Source: a virus. From it: a stretch of 49,311 bases of DNA. The notes under the pieces were generated by a model. The model was not told the DNA's origin. It did no database searches and saw nothing but the letters and a program-made list of their open reading frames with translations. Shown piece by piece: positions 32,412 to 41,352 of the stretch; positions within the stretch are counted from its first letter, which is position 1; the number at the start of each line of letters is the position of its first letter. The stretch lies in IMG/VR virus record IMGVR_UViG_3300022918_000171, positions 1-49,311 of that record; one strand, 5' to 3'. The position numbers and the translations under genes were made by a program.

Positions 32412-33196
32412 TGTTAAAAATATTGACGCTTTCTTGGGAAGGTAAATCAAAGTTGGAAAAATTATATCCAACTTTATTAAAAAATTTATGTAATGTAGAT
32501 TGGGAGTGGCACGTAAAAGATAACGGAAGCTCAGATGAAAGTTATCGATTAAATGAAATTTGGAAAAATGATAAAGTTAATATTATAAAATATAAAGATA
32601 ATAAAGATAACTTTGCTCAAGGATGCAATTTTCTTTTTAAAGAAAGTTCTCCGAAAGATGATGATTTAATTCTTTTATTAAATAATGATATCGTTTTCAA
32701 CGATGAAAAATCATTATCAAATATGATGGATATCATAAAAAATGATAAAGTCGGAGCAGTAGGAGCTAAATTAAAATATAACAATAGCAATCTCATACAA
32801 CATGCTGGCGTTGTTTTTGCTAGAAACGGATTTCCAATTCATTTTAAAGCTAATCAAAATGATGATATCAATAGCTCTTCGAATAGAGAATTTCAAGCTT
32901 GTACAGGAGCTCTTCTTTTAATTAAATCAAAATATTTTGTTATGGATAATAAATATTTTTGGTGTTTTGAGGATATAGATACCTGCCTTGATATAAAATA
33001 TAATCAAGGAAAAAAAATTGTTTGTTGTGGTCAAACAAATGTTGCGCATGAAGAAAGTGCGACTCTAAAAAAGAACCCGGTAAATAAACTTTATCTTAAT
33101 CAAAACCTTTCTTATTTTTCTTCAAAATGGAATAAAAAAATAAATATAGATTACGATATATACTTTAAAAATAAACAACACAACATTTATGAATAA
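32411..33196 (+). CDS. Glycosyltransferase family 2, second copy
   Basis: This 261-residue protein begins at a TAATG overlap. It shows VKDNGSSDES at about 35-44 (donor-binding), a NFAQGCN segment near 67-73 and LLLNNDIVF (NND at 91-93) in place of DxD. Further on, a FWCFEDIDTCLDIKY stretch contains the ED motif, and HEESAT near residue 225 completes the acceptor region. It ends 8 nt inside the next gene. It is more divergent at the N-terminus than the first GT2 copy (ILTLSWEGKSKLEKL instead of a classic V-strand). Acceptor and sugar are unknown. Confidence 0.78.
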   Translation: MLKILTLSWEGKSKLEKLYPTLLKNLCNVDWEWHVKDNGSSDESYRLNEIWKNDKVNIIKYKDNKDNFAQGCNFLFKESSPKDDDLILLLNNDIVFNDEKSLSNMMDIIKNDKVGAVGAKLKYNNSNLIQHAGVVFARNGFPIHFKANQNDDINSSSNREFQACTGALLLIKSKYFVMDNKYFWCFEDIDTCLDIKYNQGKKIVCCGQTNVAHEESATLKKNPVNKLYLNQNLSYFSSKWNKKINIDYDIYFKNKQHNIYE

Positions 33197-34094
33197 AAAT
33201 AAAATATTGATTACTGGCTCTTGTGGTTTCATAGGAGCTAACCTAACAAGAAAATTATCTTATGAAAAATATAAGATTGCATCACTTGATCGTGGTGATA
33301 TAAATGATGTGTCCTCTATATACAGCAATAAAAATCACAAGTTTTATTTAGCAGATTTGAAAGATAAACATATATTAGATCAAATTTTTCAACTTGAAAA
33401 ACCAGAAATAGTCATTCATCTTGCTTTAGATAAAGATGATGATTGCTTAGCAACATCAAACCTAATTGAAGCTTCATCAAAATTTGGTATTTCAAAAATT
33501 ATTTACTCTTCTGATAGCGGAGTATATGGAGTTAATGAAAGTATTTCATCTATTAGATTAGATGAAAAGTCAAAATTAAATCCAACAACTAAATTCATTG
33601 AAAATAAAATAAACTGTGAAAATTTAATAAAAAATTCTAAACTGGATTATACGATAGCTCGACTATCTACAAATTACGGATCTAGACAAAAATCATATAA
33701 TCTAATACCTGGTATAATAAAAGCAGTTTTAAAAAATGAAGAGGTGCAGATACCATCTGCATTATCTTCACAGGAATATACTCATGTTCATGATACATGC
33801 TCAGCTTTTGTTAGCATGATGGAGAATATTTCTAAAAATGAAATATATAATGTTTCATCTAATCAAGAATTTGGAGATATGGAATTGGCACATGAAGTAT
33901 GTTCTATTTTAGAAAAATATCATGGTACTAAATGCCAGCATTTAGTAAAATATGGATCTGAAAAAAGTCAATTCGAAGTGAATATGAATTCAGATAAACT
34001 AAAATCAATAGGTTGGCAGCCTCTTGTGAAATTCAAACAAGGGGTCGAGCAAACAGTTGATTGGTTTATGAGTAATCAATGGTGTCTTAAATAA
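33189..34094 (+). CDS. NAD-dependent epimerase/dehydratase family protein (SDR), catalytic Tyr replaced
   Basis: This 301-residue extended SDR has the Rossmann motif TGSCGFIGANL (G10-x-x-G13-x-x-G16), a D-containing second strand (SLDRGD) and an HLAL strand. The usual YxxxK catalytic motif is found as F136-I-E-N-K140 within PTTKFIENKINCE, so the tyrosine is a phenylalanine. The upstream SSDSGVYG (107-114) serves as the serine region. Enzymes of this family convert NDP-sugars (4-epimerases, 4,6-dehydratases, reductases). Without the tyrosine the usual hydride-transfer chemistry should be impaired, so it may be inactive, regulatory or use another acid/base. It closes the sugar island, starting 8 nt inside the preceding GT2 gene. 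Confidence 0.8.
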   Translation: MNKNKILITGSCGFIGANLTRKLSYEKYKIASLDRGDINDVSSIYSNKNHKFYLADLKDKHILDQIFQLEKPEIVIHLALDKDDDCLATSNLIEASSKFGISKIIYSSDSGVYGVNESISSIRLDEKSKLNPTTKFIENKINCENLIKNSKLDYTIARLSTNYGSRQKSYNLIPGIIKAVLKNEEVQIPSALSSQEYTHVHDTCSAFVSMMENISKNEIYNVSSNQEFGDMELAHEVCSILEKYHGTKCQHLVKYGSEKSQFEVNMNSDKLKSIGWQPLVKFKQGVEQTVDWFMSNQWCLK

Positions 34095-34106: not shown

Positions 34107-35465
34107 ATGGGAGCAACCTCAATAACTGAAAATGATGAAAAAAAAGAAATCGAAGATGACATTTCAAATGTCGAAATAAAAGAAGAGCCTAAAATGGACA
34201 TGGAAAAATTAAAAGCTTTGAAAGCAAAAGCTGCAGAAAAAAATGGAGATAAAATGGCAGCAAAAATAGTGGCACCAAAACAAAAATCATTACGAATTGG
34301 TGTTGTTGCGTCTGGTCAAGGTGGCGGTCGTTTAGGCGAAGCTTTATTTAATCTTGGGTATGATACCATCGCTCTTAATACCGCTTCTCAAGACCTTAAA
34401 TTTCTTAAGCTACCTGATAGCAACAAGCTTCTACTAGAGAGTGGTAGTGGCATAGGAGGCGCCGCAAGAGAGCTTTCCATTGGCGAACACGCCGCGCAAT
34501 CAAACTCAACAGAGATTATGGAATTGGTGAATGATAAACTTTCCGATTGTCAAGTTTATTTATGCTGCTTTTCATTGGGAGGCGGGTCGGGCTCCGGATC
34601 AGCAGAAACATTAATTAATTTGCTAAACGAAACTGGAAAGCCAATTATAGCTTTATGCGTACTTCCAATGGGATCGGAAGATCTTAAAATGAAACAAAAT
34701 AGTTTAGAGACTTTATCTAAACTTGCTAGACTTACTGAAAGTAAAGTAATATCCAATTTGATCGTTGCTGATAATTTTAAAATTGAAAGTATATTAGCAG
34801 ATACTAATATGTTAAATTTTTATGAAACCGCAAACAAATCTATTGTTGAAATTTTTGATAAATTTAATGTTCTCTCATCAGAAAACTCTCCTCTAAAAAG
34901 TTTAGATCAAAGTGAGTTTGCAAAAATTACATTAGGCGGAGGCGGCTTGTCTATATTCGGATCTATGAATGTAGAAAATTATGAAGAAGATACTGCAATT
35001 GCAGAGGCAATAATTTCTAATTTAAACGGAAATCTTTTGGCTGACGGATTTGATTTAAAGCAAGCGAAATATGTAGGTTTTATGGTTGTTGCCGGAAAAG
35101 AAGTGTGGGCGAAACTACCATCACAAAGCATAAATTATGCAGTTAGTTGTTTGGGAGAGCTTTGTAATGGTGAAATTTTTAAAGGTCTTTATGTAATGGC
35201 TGATATGAAAGAAGAGGATGGAATTAAAGTATTTTCATATTTTAGTGGGTTAGGGTTGCCTGATGAAAGACTCTCATCTTTAAAATCGGAAATAAAAGAA
35301 CTAGCTTCTAAAGCTAAAGTAAAAGAAGAGGGGCGCTCACTAACTCTTAAATTAGATACTGGATTGACTGACACTGCTACAGCGGCGGAAAAAATCAAAG
35401 CCAAAATTGCTAATAACAAAAGTGCATTTGGAAAATTGATGGGGAATTCTGACAGACGCAAATAA
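34107..35465 (+). CDS. FtsZ/tubulin-family GTPase (phage-encoded cytoskeletal protein)
   Basis: This 452-residue protein has a good ribosome site (AAAGGAAAG) before the ATG. After a charged ~60-residue extension comes a tubulin-type GTPase core: IGVVASGQGGGRLGEAL (63-80, T1), NTASQDLK (91-98, equivalent to FtsZ NTDAQ), SGSGIGGAA (112-120), and the signature LGGGSGSGS (157-165; family consensus GGGTGTG). Then IALCVLPMG (181-189) and a helix near 235-252. A C-domain segment SLDQSEF holds D267 and E270, in the position of the T7 catalytic acids, followed by a FtsZ-like GGGGLSIFGSM. It should bind GTP and polymerise. Known phage relatives (PhuZ, TubZ) position DNA or partition plasmids. This one is longer than PhuZ (about 315 residues). 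It sits between the sugar island and the replication genes. Confidence 0.85.
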   Translation: MGATSITENDEKKEIEDDISNVEIKEEPKMDMEKLKALKAKAAEKNGDKMAAKIVAPKQKSLRIGVVASGQGGGRLGEALFNLGYDTIALNTASQDLKFLKLPDSNKLLLESGSGIGGAARELSIGEHAAQSNSTEIMELVNDKLSDCQVYLCCFSLGGGSGSGSAETLINLLNETGKPIIALCVLPMGSEDLKMKQNSLETLSKLARLTESKVISNLIVADNFKIESILADTNMLNFYETANKSIVEIFDKFNVLSSENSPLKSLDQSEFAKITLGGGGLSIFGSMNVENYEEDTAIAEAIISNLNGNLLADGFDLKQAKYVGFMVVAGKEVWAKLPSQSINYAVSCLGELCNGEIFKGLYVMADMKEEDGIKVFSYFSGLGLPDERLSSLKSEIKELASKAKVKEEGRSLTLKLDTGLTDTATAAEKIKAKIANNKSAFGKLMGNSDRRK

Positions 35466-35483: not shown

Positions 35484-35522
35484 AATATCCTCTACTCGAT
35501 ATATTGTTGAGTAGAGGATATT
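35484..35522. repeat. Perfect 14-bp inverted repeat with 11-nt loop
   Basis: AATATCCTCTACTC (35484-35497) and its exact reverse complement (35509-35522) flank an 11-nt AT-rich loop. It begins 19 nt after the stop of the FtsZ/tubulin-like gene and ends 4 nt before the ATG of the interrupted zinc-knuckle gene. There is no T-run after the stem, so it is a weak candidate for an intrinsic terminator. Alternatives are an operator, an RNA processing site or a DNA-binding site related to the neighbouring GTPase. Confidence 0.7.
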
Positions 35523-35525
35523 GCT

Positions 35526-35771
35526 ATGCAGCGCGTTTCGTTTGAAACTATGATGAGTAGAGTTTTAGAAAAAGCCAAAGATAAAAATTTTGTTATAAAC
35601 TTTCAGGAAGATAATGAGGAACAATAATTTAAAAATACTAAAAAAGGTCATAGATATTTTAAATATTACTGCCCTAGTTGCGGTTGTAAAAAAATTACAA
35701 ACGTAATTGTTAGAGGAAAAAGTTGGTTAAAAATAACAGAAGGCAAACCAATGGTTAAAAACATTTTATGA
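35526..35771 (+). pseudogene. Small zinc-knuckle protein gene interrupted by an in-frame TAA
   Basis: From the ATG at 35526 a frame reads 33 codons (start MQRVSFETMMSRVLEKAKDK), hits TAA at 35625-35627, then continues in the same frame for 47 more codons. The second part contains YYCPSCGCKKITNVIVRGKS (C-x2-C-x-C) and ends at TGA 35769-35771. That final stop overlaps the ATG of the helicase gene as ATGA, the arrangement seen between most neighbouring real genes here, so the second part is probably meant to be translated. No start codon occurs right after the TAA. Either the gene is broken by one base change, the stop is read through, or the base is a sequencing error. Confidence 0.55.
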
Positions 35772-37264
35772 ATAAAATAGTTATTATAAATAATAAGACT
35801 TGTAAATTAGAATTAGATGATGAAAAAATCTTAAACAAAATTAAGTATGAACTCTCATTTATACAAGAAGGTTATCAATACAGTGTAATGCATAAAGAGC
35901 ATTCTTGGGATGGTAGAGTTTTCCTTATAAAGAATAAAAACAATTCTTTTAATTACCCACTCTTAAAAAGAGTAAAAACTCTATTAGATACACACAAAGT
36001 AATCTACGATATAGAAGATAATCGAAAACCATTTATTAAATCCAACCCATTAGATATATCAAAACGATTAAAAGAAATTGGGATGATTCCGAGAGATTAT
36101 CAACAAGATGTCTGTAATTTGATTAGTCAAAATGATAATGGTATATGCAGATTAGCTACGGCTTCTGGTAAAACAATGTTATCAGCATTGGCAGCAGCAA
36201 ATGAAAACAAGCACACACTAATTCTAACAATAGGAATTGATATTTTATATCAATTCCATTCTTTGTATGAAAAAATCTTTAAAGACAATAAAGAAGTTGG
36301 TAAAATAGGTATATGTGGAGATGGTCAAGTTATTATTGGCGACAAATTTACAATAGCAACAACATTCACAATTGGGCGAGCACTAAAGTTATCTAAAAAA
36401 GATATGAAATCTGAAGATAATGATGTCGAGGACGAAAAATTTGATGAAACAAATTCTGAAAAAATATTAGAACTGATTGGTAAAACTCAAATGCTAATAT
36501 TAGATGAATGTCATTGCGGATCTACTGCCACTATGAAGGCAATATATAAAGCATTACCAAATAACGGTATTGAAAAAATAATAGGATTGTCTGGAACTCC
36601 ATTTAGAAATGGGACTGAAGATCTCGAGATAATAAATTATCTTGGTGAAAAAATAGCTGATATATCTTCTTCTTTTTTAATAGAAAAAAATGTCTTACCT
36701 CAACCAATAATTAAATTTATTAATGTTCCATCATTTTCAATGTTTTCTAAAACATATCATGAAATATATAGAGAAAAAATTGTAGATAATAATCTTAGAA
36801 ATAATATGATTTTAAATAACACAAAAGAACTAGTATCAAAAGGTTATAAAACCTTAGTTCTTTTTAAAACAATTGATCATGGTAAAAATTTATTAAAACT
36901 TTTTAAAGAAAATGGCGTTAGGTGTTCTCTTTTATCAGGAAAAGATAAATTTGATAAAAGGAAAAAGGTCAAAGAAGATCTTGAATTGAATAAAATAGAT
37001 GTATTGATATTAAGTACGATAGGTGATATAGGTCTTGATATTCCATGTCTTGCTGGTATGGTTTTGGCTGGTAGCGGAAAATCATTTGTTAGATGTCTTC
37101 AAAGATGTGGAAGAATCTTAAGACCTTTTCCTGGAAAAAAAATAGTTGCCATAGTTGATTTTTATGATGATGTAAGATATCTTAAAGGACATGCCAAAAA
37201 AAGATTAGAAACATATCAATCAGAACCGGGATTTAAATTAATATTACCAAAGAATTTAAAATAA
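35768..37264 (+). CDS. UvsW-like superfamily 2 DNA/RNA helicase
   Basis: This 498-residue protein has an N-terminal ~90 residues resembling the small DNA-binding domain of T4 UvsW (HSWDGRVFLIK), then RDYQQD (Q-like motif). Motif I is LATASGKT (129-136), motif II the DECH box (D246-H249), motif III SGTPFR (275-280), motif V region LILSTIGDIGLDIP, and motif VI LQRCGRILRP. UvsW-type helicases unwind branched DNA and R-loops and move replication from origin-dependent to recombination-dependent initiation. Residues ~210-232 are an acidic insertion. It is the first gene of the replication cluster and overlaps the preceding frame by 4 nt. Confidence 0.85.
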   Translation: MNKIVIINNKTCKLELDDEKILNKIKYELSFIQEGYQYSVMHKEHSWDGRVFLIKNKNNSFNYPLLKRVKTLLDTHKVIYDIEDNRKPFIKSNPLDISKRLKEIGMIPRDYQQDVCNLISQNDNGICRLATASGKTMLSALAAANENKHTLILTIGIDILYQFHSLYEKIFKDNKEVGKIGICGDGQVIIGDKFTIATTFTIGRALKLSKKDMKSEDNDVEDEKFDETNSEKILELIGKTQMLILDECHCGSTATMKAIYKALPNNGIEKIIGLSGTPFRNGTEDLEIINYLGEKIADISSSFLIEKNVLPQPIIKFINVPSFSMFSKTYHEIYREKIVDNNLRNNMILNNTKELVSKGYKTLVLFKTIDHGKNLLKLFKENGVRCSLLSGKDKFDKRKKVKEDLELNKIDVLILSTIGDIGLDIPCLAGMVLAGSGKSFVRCLQRCGRILRPFPGKKIVAIVDFYDDVRYLKGHAKKRLETYQSEPGFKLILPKNLK

Positions 37265-37860: not shown

Positions 37861-38216
37861 TGGAAATAGAAAAAGGTTTTTACGTCAAGTGTTTTTTAAA
37901 GAACGGGTTTGCTGTTGAAGGAATAGTTATTGCTTGGTCAGATGAAGAAATTGAAATTGAATGTATAATTGATAATTCAATTACTTTAATTCATAATCCA
38001 AAAGAACAATTAGTTATAACTAAAATTTCTTTAAAAGATCCTCAAGAGGTAATGAATAAAAATAAAAAGATTAGTCAATCTATTGAAGATAAAAATGATT
38101 TACAGGATGTCGCTATAGATGATGAAGAGGAAAATAATTTTCCCAAAGAATATAAAGAAGTAGGGCAGGTTGCTTATGGCTATCCAGGATTTTTCAAAGA
38201 CCAAAGCGCTAAATAA
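37860..38216 (+). CDS. Small Sm-like-fold candidate protein
   Basis: This 118-residue protein has residues ~5-57 in an Sm/Hfq-like five-strand order: GFYVKCFLKNGFAVEGIVIA (Sm1-like, with G and NG turn), a short polar turn, IEIECIID, then ITLIHNPKEQLVITKI. The remaining C-terminal half is acidic and probably disordered (DDEEENNF). It begins at TAATG with the previous gene, and its end overlaps the loader gene start by about 40 nt in another frame. Hfq and LSm proteins bind RNA as rings; a role in RNA handling is suggested only by the pattern. Other small beta-barrels (SH3-like, Tudor) would look similar. Confidence 0.5.
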   Translation: MEIEKGFYVKCFLKNGFAVEGIVIAWSDEEIEIECIIDNSITLIHNPKEQLVITKISLKDPQEVMNKNKKISQSIEDKNDLQDVAIDDEEENNFPKEYKEVGQVAYGYPGFFKDQSAK

Positions 38217-38886
38217 TATTCCATCTAAAAAATTAGATGAAGTAATAGCGAGCATTAATGTATCAGATGATACAGATTTAAATAAAAATAAAAAAGTCAA
38301 TATAGTTAATAGGTACTATGATAGCAATATTCCAATTGAATATTGGAAATTTAAAATGGATAAAGACTTCTCTGGAGATCCAAGGTTATTAGAAAAATAT
38401 AATCAATATACATTAGATATTAAAAACACATATTTTAATGGAAAATCATTATGTGTCGCAGGCACCCATGGTGGTGGTAAGACTACAGTTTTATCTTGCG
38501 TCCTTAAATTAGCAACACTAAAAGGTTATAGTTGTCTATATACAACTATGGTTGATATAGTGTCTGCTTTAACTCAATCTGATAGTGATGAAAAATCAGC
38601 AGCCAAAAGAGAATTAACAATGGTCGATTTTTTATTCATTGATGAATTGGATTATCGTTTTTTTAATTCTGATAATGCTAAAGATCTATATGGAAGAACA
38701 TTTGAAACAATATTGAGAGCGCGTTTGCAAAACAAGTTGCCAACTTTATTGGCGACCAATTCTCCAAACGTGAAAGAAAATTTCATATCCTTATTTAAAG
38801 ATAGTTTGGGATCTTTGCTTAATAGGGTTGAAATGTTTTCTGTAATGCCTGGTGAAGATTTTAGAAAGAAAATGGTGGAAAAGTGA
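38176..38886 (+). CDS. DnaC/IstB-like AAA+ helicase-loader ATPase
   Basis: I take the ATG at 38176 (236 residues), spaced 6 nt from AGG at 38167-38169; a TTG at 38170 would add two residues. Walker A is GTHGGGKTT (96-104), Walker B FLFIDELD (152-159), and sensor 1 is LLATNSP (about 193-199). A C-terminal NRVEM segment supplies the arginine-finger region of DnaC-like ATPases. The first ~85 residues are variable and lack the cysteine cluster of some DnaC relatives. It lies directly upstream of the DnaB-like helicase (GTGA overlap), so loading that helicase onto DNA is the natural inference. Overlap with the Sm-like gene is unusually long (41 nt) for this region. Confidence 0.8.
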   Translation: MAIQDFSKTKALNNIPSKKLDEVIASINVSDDTDLNKNKKVNIVNRYYDSNIPIEYWKFKMDKDFSGDPRLLEKYNQYTLDIKNTYFNGKSLCVAGTHGGGKTTVLSCVLKLATLKGYSCLYTTMVDIVSALTQSDSDEKSAAKRELTMVDFLFIDELDYRFFNSDNAKDLYGRTFETILRARLQNKLPTLLATNSPNVKENFISLFKDSLGSLLNRVEMFSVMPGEDFRKKMVEK

Positions 38887-40268
38887 GTTCATTTGAAGAT
38901 TTAGATTTAGTTATATTAAAAGGGTTAATATCAGATAAAGATAAAGCGACATCATTTGTTTATGAGAATGCAGATGCGAAACTTTTCAGTCCTGATGTTT
39001 GGGCGTTTGCAAATATCGCAATGTCTTATATTAGAACATATAAAGAAGTCCCTACATTACAAGCTATTTGTGATAAGTTAAAAAAAGATGGAAAAGAAAG
39101 AGCTATTGATGGAATAAAAAACATTTGGTCAAAACTTGAATCAACAGAAATGTTGCCACAAGAATTCGCATTCAATGTTGATAAACTAAAAGATAGATAT
39201 CGGGAGAGAGAATTATCATCTTTAAAAGAGAGACTTACAGGCGCTAATGCAGAAACTGCAGTTAAAGATATTCAATCAACATTACAAAAAATACAGCAAT
39301 CTAAAAATGTTCAAACTTTTGAAAATAAAAGTGTAAGAGATTATCTTCCTACATTTACTGAAAAATTTAAATCCAAAAGAGATAATCCAAATTTTGAACA
39401 TGGTTTGAAAACTGGTTTTAGTTATATAGACATAGCTACTAACGGTTTAAGAGAAGCTGATTTTATTTTATGCGCAGGAAGCTCTGGCGCCGGAAAAAGT
39501 ATTTTAATGAATTCTCTATCTACTTCTATATGGTTGGGAGAAAACAAAATAACTGATACTACATTTAAAAAGGGAGCCGATTGTATATATTTTAGTTTAG
39601 AGATGCCTTATGAAGATTGTTTCTTTAGGTTTCTTTCAGGTCTTGCTGGAGTACCTTCACGATCTATTGAAAACGCAAAACTTACGAAAGAAGAGTTTGG
39701 CAAAATAAAACAAGCATTGGATTTTATTAAAAGATATCCTTATGATTTTAAAATTGTAGATTTATCTGATCCTAATTGTAATGATTTAGACGTTGTCTTA
39801 GAAGAAGATGGAAAGCATTATGATTTAATTACGGTAGATTATTTAAATATTATGCAATCCAATAGCGGAAAACAAGAAAGCGATCATTTAATGCAAGGCG
39901 CTATTTCTTATGAACTAAGAATGTTAGCAAGAAAACATAAGTCTATTATGCTAACTGGAAACCAATTAAATAGAGCTACGGGCGGTGGAGAAAAAATTGG
40001 TCTTCATAGACTTTCACGAGCAGGACAAATTGCTACCAACTGTACACTAATTATGCAAATTGAAGATCGTGAAAATGAGTCAAAATATTCTGATATGTCT
40101 ATTCATATTATTAAAAATAGAAGAGGTGCTAAAGGAAGCTTCTCTATGCTTAAAAATCTTGCTTGCTCAACTCTTACAGATATTCCTGTAGAAGAAGATG
40201 ATTTTAATAAAAACGAATTCACAGATTTAGAAGACATCTCTGAAGATGTTGATGGTTTGGATTTTTAA
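38883..40268 (+). CDS. DnaB-like replicative helicase
   Basis: This 461-residue protein starts at GTG 38883, overlapping the loader's TGA. Residues ~1-110 form a helical N-domain (DLDLVILKGLISDKDKATSF) like DnaB/gp41. A linker helix follows, then a RecA-like core: TGFSYIDIATNGL (177-189), Walker A GSSGAGKS (199-206), YFSLEMPYED (236-245) with the catalytic Glu, LITVDYLNIM as Walker B, LTGNQLNRA, and an RNRRGAKGSF-type tail (written KNRRGAKGSF). It should unwind DNA 5'-3' at the fork as a hexamer, fuelled by NTP. T4 gp41 is the functional counterpart. The acidic last ~30 residues may contact partners. Confidence 0.87.
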   Translation: MSSFEDLDLVILKGLISDKDKATSFVYENADAKLFSPDVWAFANIAMSYIRTYKEVPTLQAICDKLKKDGKERAIDGIKNIWSKLESTEMLPQEFAFNVDKLKDRYRERELSSLKERLTGANAETAVKDIQSTLQKIQQSKNVQTFENKSVRDYLPTFTEKFKSKRDNPNFEHGLKTGFSYIDIATNGLREADFILCAGSSGAGKSILMNSLSTSIWLGENKITDTTFKKGADCIYFSLEMPYEDCFFRFLSGLAGVPSRSIENAKLTKEEFGKIKQALDFIKRYPYDFKIVDLSDPNCNDLDVVLEEDGKHYDLITVDYLNIMQSNSGKQESDHLMQGAISYELRMLARKHKSIMLTGNQLNRATGGGEKIGLHRLSRAGQIATNCTLIMQIEDRENESKYSDMSIHIIKNRRGAKGSFSMLKNLACSTLTDIPVEEDDFNKNEFTDLEDISEDVDGLDF

Positions 40269-40761: not shown

Positions 40762-41073
40762 ATGCCCACCTACAACCACATTTGTAATTCCGAAGAATGT
40801 CAGCATGAATTTGAAGATTTTTATTCCATAACAAAAGATCCTCCAACCACTTGTCCGAAATGCAACAAAGAAACTGTTGTTAGAGTTATTTCCGACAATA
40901 GTTCCCGAGGTATAGTAGAACTTACAGGACAAGAATATAAAGATAAAGTTATGGCTGACGCATCTAAACTTAAGAAGGATGCGCAAAAATCAGAACGCGT
41001 CTATTCAAACCTTTTAGGTGAAACTAAATATGAAGCTTTAACTAAACAGTTAGATAAAAATAAAAAGAAATAA
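40762..41073 (+). CDS. FmdB-type zinc-ribbon protein, first copy
   Basis: This 103-residue protein begins MPTYNHICNS, the typical FmdB start (MPTYxYxC). Zinc ligands are C8 and C13 (C-x4-C) and CPKC at 31-34. After residue 45 it is charged and helical (KYEALTKQLDKNKKK at the end). FmdB-like ribbons are common in phages and are thought to act as small regulators or scaffolds, but no function is established. A strong hairpin follows it, so it likely ends a transcription unit. It is longer at the C-terminus than the second copy. Confidence 0.8.
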   Translation: MPTYNHICNSEECQHEFEDFYSITKDPPTTCPKCNKETVVRVISDNSSRGIVELTGQEYKDKVMADASKLKKDAQKSERVYSNLLGETKYEALTKQLDKNKKK

Positions 41074-41090
41074 AATTCTATTGATTGATT

Positions 41091-41127
41091 AAAAGAAGAA
41101 TGTCAAACATTGACATTTTTCTTTTTG
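41091..41127 (+). terminator. Strong hairpin with T-rich arm (terminator candidate)
   Basis: A 16-bp stem pairs 41091-41106 (AAAAGAAGAATGTCAA) with 41110-41125 (TTGACATTTTTCTTTT) around a 3-nt loop, with a single G-T pair. The descending arm is itself T-rich and is followed by one more T before G. It is placed 18 nt after the FmdB gene stop. In a + strand transcript this should end or pause RNA polymerase, but the T-run is interrupted by one C. Confidence 0.6.
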
Positions 41128-41137
41128 TGTGTAAATT
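41110..41137 (+). promoter_or_regulatory. Sigma70-type promoter candidate overlapping the hairpin
   Basis: TTGACA (41110-41115, consensus -35) is followed after 16 nt by TAAATT (41132-41137, 4 of 6 matches to TATAAT). It would transcribe the second zinc ribbon, the 46-residue protein, the sigma factor and nrdBA. The -35 lies inside the descending arm of the hairpin, so termination and restart would be combined at one place. Consensus -35 hexamers are rare by chance in such AT-rich sequence. Confidence 0.45.
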
Positions 41138-41160
41138 GTATACCTACGCAAAGGAAAAAC

Positions 41161-41352
41161 ATGGCAACTTATATTTATAAATGTGAAACTCACGGAGAAT
41201 TTGAAGCGGAGCACTCTATCAAAGATAAATTAGAAGAATGTCCTCATTGTAAAGCAGAAGGAAAAGAAAATGTTCCTGTCGAGCGATTAATTGCAGGAGG
41301 CTCTTCATTCATTCTTCAGGGGTCCGGTTGGGCATCAACTGGATACAGTTGA
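41161..41352 (+). CDS. FmdB-type zinc-ribbon protein, second copy
   Basis: I start at the ATG at 41161 (63 residues) because AAGGA (41151-41155) precedes it and the product begins MATYIYKCETHGEF, a typical FmdB start. A longer in-frame reading from 41110 would begin in the hairpin. Ligands are C8, H11 and CPHC at 27-30, so one knuckle is C-x2-H rather than C-x2-C. The tail SSFILQGSGWASTGYS matches the usual FmdB ending (FxLxGxGW). Its stop overlaps the following small gene (TGATG). Confidence 0.82.
   Translation: MATYIYKCETHGEFEAEHSIKDKLEECPHCKAEGKENVPVERLIAGGSSFILQGSGWASTGYS

Follow-up and report, generated by a model that had tools for sequence, protein, structure and literature searches.

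What kind of tubulin does this phage encode, and what might it be used for? The gene lies in a linear window of 49,311 bases that is the whole of IMG/VR virus record IMGVR_UViG_3300022918_000171 and probably a fragment. The open reading frame has no internal stops, whereas many stops interrupt the reverse strand of the same stretch (Table 1). The product passes the curated cut-offs of the Pfam profiles Tubulin (PF00091; 4.4e-15, 56.9 bits against 33) and TubZ-like_C (PF22453; 5.5e-7, 30.1 bits against 26), and its match to the tubulin superfamily is far above chance. The preliminary description had read a tubulin/FtsZ-superfamily GTPase from the motifs LGGGSGSGS, NTASQDL, D267 and E270. Those motifs are present as quoted, the active site is intact, and the assignment to the superfamily stands. 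Across 59 homologues, 48 positions are invariant. These include the glycine loops (in the T4 loop, G158-G160 and G162), N91-T92, D96-L97, D222-N223 and D267, and position 270 is either E or D. The nucleotide loops and the T7 acidic residue are thus complete, and on sequence grounds this is a real, intact tubulin-type GTPase gene.

Table 1. Features of the tubulin locus, in window coordinates
Feature	Positions	Strand	Remarks
NAD-dependent nucleotide-sugar epimerase, upstream neighbor	33189..34094	+	
Phage tubulin gene (TubZ-like fold, own clade)	34107..35465	+	452 aa; ATG at 34107, TAA ending at 35465
N-terminal extension, residues 1-61	34107..34289	+	charged, conserved in relatives
NTASQDL, residues 91-97 (T2 region)	34377..34397	+	TubZ-type NTxxxDL
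LGGGSGSGS, residues 157-165 (T4 glycine loop)	34575..34601	+	
D222-N223, guanine-side loop	34770..34775	+	invariant
T7 loop D267-x-x-E270	34905..34916	+	
C-terminal tail, residues 414-452	35346..35462	+	basic
Perfect inverted repeat just past the tubulin stop (14-bp arms, 11-nt loop)	35484..35522	.	
UvsW-like DNA helicase, downstream neighbor	35768..37264	+	
DnaC-like helicase loader of the conserved block	38170..38886	+	
DnaB-like replicative helicase of the conserved block	38883..40268	+	

The motifs had initially been judged closer to FtsZ, a view that did not survive comparison. Against the FtsZ equivalog model TIGR00065 the protein scores 57.1 bits, where the cut-off is 295.2. Its guanine loop reads DN, as in TubZ, whereas FtsZ has PN, and its NTxxxDL motif is that of TubZ rather than the NTxxQAL of FtsZ. 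An AlphaFold model built from 59 sequences (mean pLDDT 78.4, pTM 0.72; core near 90, both ends low) has the tubulin-type two-domain fold, and PDB matches span nearly the whole core. Foldseek places TubZ at the top (2xka, E 3.7e-25; 4ei7, TM 0.82; range for the two structures 0.76-0.82, TM values by target length), followed by FtsZ and CetZ, which share the superfamily fold and GTPase motifs but match below TubZ and branch separately from the window tubulin. In phmmer searches of the PDB a Bacillus TubZ/RepX chain was best (5e-17), then FtsZ (2e-12), with phiKZ PhuZ far weaker (2e-4); pXO1-type TubZ entered the comparison as PDB matches only.

Phylogeny, one of the checks suggested at the outset along with profile search and structure prediction, sets the phage tubulins apart as a family. 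In two trees they form one clade (100/99) that is separate from PhuZ, FtsZ and plasmid TubZ. The PhuZ and FtsZ clades are each supported at 100/100 and the window tubulin is outside both, which bears out the early claim that it is distinct from PhuZ. The deeper placement is not firm: the sister group differs between the two trees, being either a planctomycete protein or a group that also includes viral sequences (L007/L009), with support of 80/53 versus 88/80 and differing membership.

Both of these possible neighboring lineages are worth describing. The viral sequences belong to a second virus-encoded TubZ-like group (L007, L008, L009, L011 and L023; 381-487 aa) with its own well-supported branch, and one member is on a 224-kb contig. 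The planctomycete protein, from a Planctomycetota MAG contig (L126, positions 811-2751), has 646 aa and combines a histone-H1-like, Lys/Ala/Thr-rich N-terminus with a tubulin domain; a second tubulin-like ORF follows (L126:2778-3956). The contig is apparently chromosomal, as an ATP-synthase-like operon adjoins. Matches occur in 5 of the 199 genomes of a Planctomycetota sample, and only one other (G195) is close.

With the branch established, we can ask how common the family is. Used alone as a query in a single-protein scan, the window tubulin found no matches among viral contigs. The neighboring UvsW, in turn, retrieved four contigs, the tubulin homologue being just upstream of uvsW in every one, at ~51% identity; one of these contigs has 301 kb. 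An alignment of these five tubulins then recovered 75 viral loci at 37-55% identity. In all, ~60 distinct homologues (35-57% identity) come from IMG/VR contigs that reach 481 kb in length. All 14 records of 301-481 kb carry exactly one copy, and the carriers are many very large uncultured phages. One family member had already been deposited (A0A6J5RW92 in UniProt/BFVD, from an uncultured Caudovirales phage; 54% identical and of equal length) under the name "FtsZ Cell division GTPase". Among the searchable open-licence papers, we found neither a study of this protein nor a description of the clade. Close tubulin pairs have dN/dS of ~0.02-0.06, values that are approximate because many pairs have a high or saturated dS; by this measure, the family is under purifying selection.

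This conservation bears on another early suggestion, namely interference with host FtsZ, for which there is no positive evidence. Under such a scheme the protein would act as a decoy, stopping division either by co-assembly with host FtsZ or by blocking it. The two proteins do share a superfamily, although no result speaks for a decoy, and we think the idea very improbable: the entire GTPase machinery is retained under purifying selection in a protein that misses the FtsZ equivalog cut-off widely, branches apart from FtsZ and has a TubZ-like fold.

The window encodes baseplate, UvsW-like, helicase-loader, DnaB-like, ribonucleotide reductase, sigma-like, DNA methyltransferase and PhoH-like proteins, and the phage is therefore a tailed phage with a baseplate. 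We considered whether it is simply T4-like, and dropped this, given that T4-type features are confined to the UvsW-like and baseplate-type matches and that, among cultured phages, both the tubulin and the Baseplate_J protein match only Bacillus phage G. A search for the T4 Gp23 capsid protein gave no matches anywhere, control included, and so carries no weight. The sole cultured-phage match of the tubulin is phage G gp138 (25.8% identity over 76%), and the same protein was again the only one when a relative of the window tubulin was the query. However, gp138 has neither the N-terminal extension nor the conserved tail, its gene neighbors differ, and it falls outside the family clade, where it groups with a metagenomic sequence (L018). 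The multisubunit RNA polymerase profile matched none of 14 family records, and phage G was also negative, but this is a weak test (the cut-off is 23.4 bits, and even the phiKZ control scored no higher than 27.8). Among the called plus-strand genes of the window, 29 end in TAA, 10 in TGA and none in TAG, and TAG stops are rare in relatives (78 of 1,211 genes encoding 100 aa or more). Recoding of TAG was considered and dropped, as the standard code gives intact genes and relatives do use some TAG stops.

PhuZ positions and rotates the chimallin nucleus in nucleus-forming phages and, to our knowledge, nearly all work on phage spindles concerns phages of this kind. PhuZ tubulins of jumbo phages are already known (PMC7950403, PMC12908238), "tubulin homologues (PhuZ)" have been reported in huge phages (PMC7162821), and two distinct tubulin/FtsZ representatives have been reported in jumbo phages (PMC7824862). 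Like PhuZ, the window tubulin is the product of a single tubulin gene in a large tailed phage and is likely an intracellular positioning filament. PhuZ differs in forming its own clade, in having no N-terminal extension and in its length (315-327 aa in five references). The protein had been described as long, which is correct relative to PhuZ; for a TubZ-type protein its length is ordinary (plasmid references, 370-448 aa). The chimallin profile matched in four of five PhuZ phages but in none of 24 window-family records, a comparison to be read in the knowledge that records may be incomplete, that a few are near-copies and that a very diverged shell could escape. Given this difference, the tubulin is unlikely to serve a phage nucleus in the way known for PhuZ. 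Tyrosine-integrase domains, the only integrase type searched for, are absent from 14 large family records, which leans toward a role in lytic growth.

We consider it probable that the tubulin forms a filament, driven by GTP, by which huge phages without a recognizable nucleus shell position their DNA or virions in the course of lytic growth. Centering of phage DNA, as suggested in the preliminary description, or its movement is plausible and comes near to this reading. Polymerization, dynamics, cargo, partner and timing are what we infer for the window protein, and the steps might be as follows. The protein would be an active, polymer-forming GTPase whose core resembles TubZ. In a head-to-tail stack of subunits, Asp267 of the T7 loop of one would complete the GTPase site of the next, to give a dynamic filament (known filaments have 2-4 strands in TubZ and 3-5 in PhuZ). 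During lytic infection, phage DNA or virions would be moved or held in position by this filament, much as PhuZ does, but in phages in which no chimallin shell is seen.

The charged N-terminal extension and basic C-terminal tail noted early on are real and conserved in relatives. In the model, the extension is mostly low-confidence or disordered apart from a short helix at residues 32-44, in which L35, L38, K39 and K41 are conserved, and S61 is invariant in the 59 homologues. The final 14 residues of the tail follow the pattern S-x-F-[GNS]-[KR]-[LF]-x4-D-[RK]-R, with F441, D449 and R451 invariant in the same set. The tail of c-st TubZ touches upper subunits, governs filament shape and binds partners (PMC5322520). 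Because it does so, we propose that the conserved basic peptide of the phage tubulin could contact neighboring subunits and/or a phage partner.

In Bacillota plasmids and in phage c-st, TubZ is the GTPase of type III plasmid partition. The obvious question is whether the phage protein could be a partition motor of this type, passing a plasmid-like prophage or pseudolysogenic genome on to daughter cells with a diverged or distant TubR and centromere. The resemblance is considerable: the best solved structures, the TubZ-like_C domain, the DN and NTxxxDL motifs, a similar length and the flexible C-terminal tail are all shared (PMC5322520), and plasmid TubZ relatives are the main other matches. 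In addition, a review ties the tubulin/FtsZ-like proteins of some jumbo phages to segregation during pseudolysogeny (PMC7824862). On the other hand, identity to TubZ is only ~25%, the clades are separate, the phage family has its own conserved tail and N-terminal extension, and in these huge phages the gene has sugar genes on one side and uvsW on the other. Most plasmid relatives have a gene of ~80-120 aa directly upstream, in the tubR position. In the window and most phage relatives this place is held by the epimerase, and otherwise by unrelated genes, so that the early remark that no TubR-like gene adjoins the tubulin is upheld. No small gene family was found to recur beside the tubulin across the phage clade, although Pfam has no dedicated family that the plasmid proteins at this position match, and a distant TubR could escape. 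Around the gene there is no iteron array, only two-copy, chance-like repeats. Judging from the occupied tubR place and the iteron search, a plasmid-type TubZ system is unlikely, and with tyrosine integrases absent from the 14 large relatives, we give the partition motor a small probability overall.

We surveyed the neighborhoods of 63 distinct tubulin loci. The gene had been described as sitting beside replication genes, which is true of its downstream side: uvsW is 1-7 genes downstream at all 41 loci where the sequence continues for 6 kb or more past the tubulin, DnaB is within 10 kb at 37 of 38, and the loader and DnaB of the window follow uvsW. Upstream, however, sugar-metabolism genes are present at 51 of 51 loci. 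In the window only 12 nt separate the epimerase stop from the tubulin start (median upstream gap in relatives, 23 nt), whereas the spacer before uvsW is 302 nt and has a hairpin inside it. Hairpins of differing sequence occur at the matching place in four relatives (L036, L045, L075 and L086); no T-run follows the one in the window. Because of these unequal distances and the hairpin, the tubulin may end the upstream run of glycan genes. The arrangement suggests, but does not prove, that it closes a sugar-gene transcription unit, in which case its tie to the replication genes would be positional only.

This location provides no direct link to DNA movement, and is thus a point against a filament that positions DNA. 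It could instead indicate a filament that organizes envelope, glycan or lysis functions. Besides the invariable sugar-gene run, a GH25 lysozyme or amidase lies between tubulin and uvsW at 15 of 41 loci, and in four distinct genomes (L103, L104, L107 and L109; e.g., L104:8798-11272) the tubulin ORF is in frame with an upstream group-1 glycosyltransferase, giving 800-824 aa. These may be real fusions or may contain an internal start, as the sequence fits both, and the fused ORFs may still yield a separate tubulin. In L110, L111 and L116, the glycosyltransferase and tubulin are separate genes. The argument for an envelope, glycan or lysis role draws on neighborhood alone, neither the window nor most relatives have the endolysin, and phage gene order often mixes functions; we regard this role as improbable.

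A more ambitious version of the positioning filament combines several claims: that the family, in phages of 300-480 kb, adds a third and widespread lineage to the phage tubulin spindles, that it works with neither a chimallin nucleus nor TubR, that the C-terminal peptide joins it to cargo, and that some relatives have fused it to a glycosyltransferase. Taken jointly these are tentative, and we hold the combination to be possible rather than probable. What gives the question weight is a conserved single-copy tubulin in a fixed genomic slot in many huge phages that show no chimallin. It would mean that intracellular transport by phage tubulins extends beyond phages with a nucleus, and it offers a clean comparison: the same superfamily, with no recognizable nucleus shell and no TubR.

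Several smaller features of these neighborhoods deserve mention. In the window, a frame at 35526-35771, in the tubulin-uvsW gap, has one in-frame TAA and, in its second part, a CPSCGC zinc-ribbon-like motif; its end overlaps the uvsW start, and it is possibly a broken small gene. The UvsW-like proteins of L098, L101, L107, L109, L111 and L114 have 790-922 aa, and the gene upstream of the tubulin in L076 and L082 encodes 660-700 aa. Both are 200-400 aa over the usual length, which suggests inteins or added domains. Lastly, the window has two small zinc-ribbon (FmdB-like) genes side by side (40762-41073 and 41110-41352); they belong to one family, and such genes recur downstream of DnaB in many relatives.
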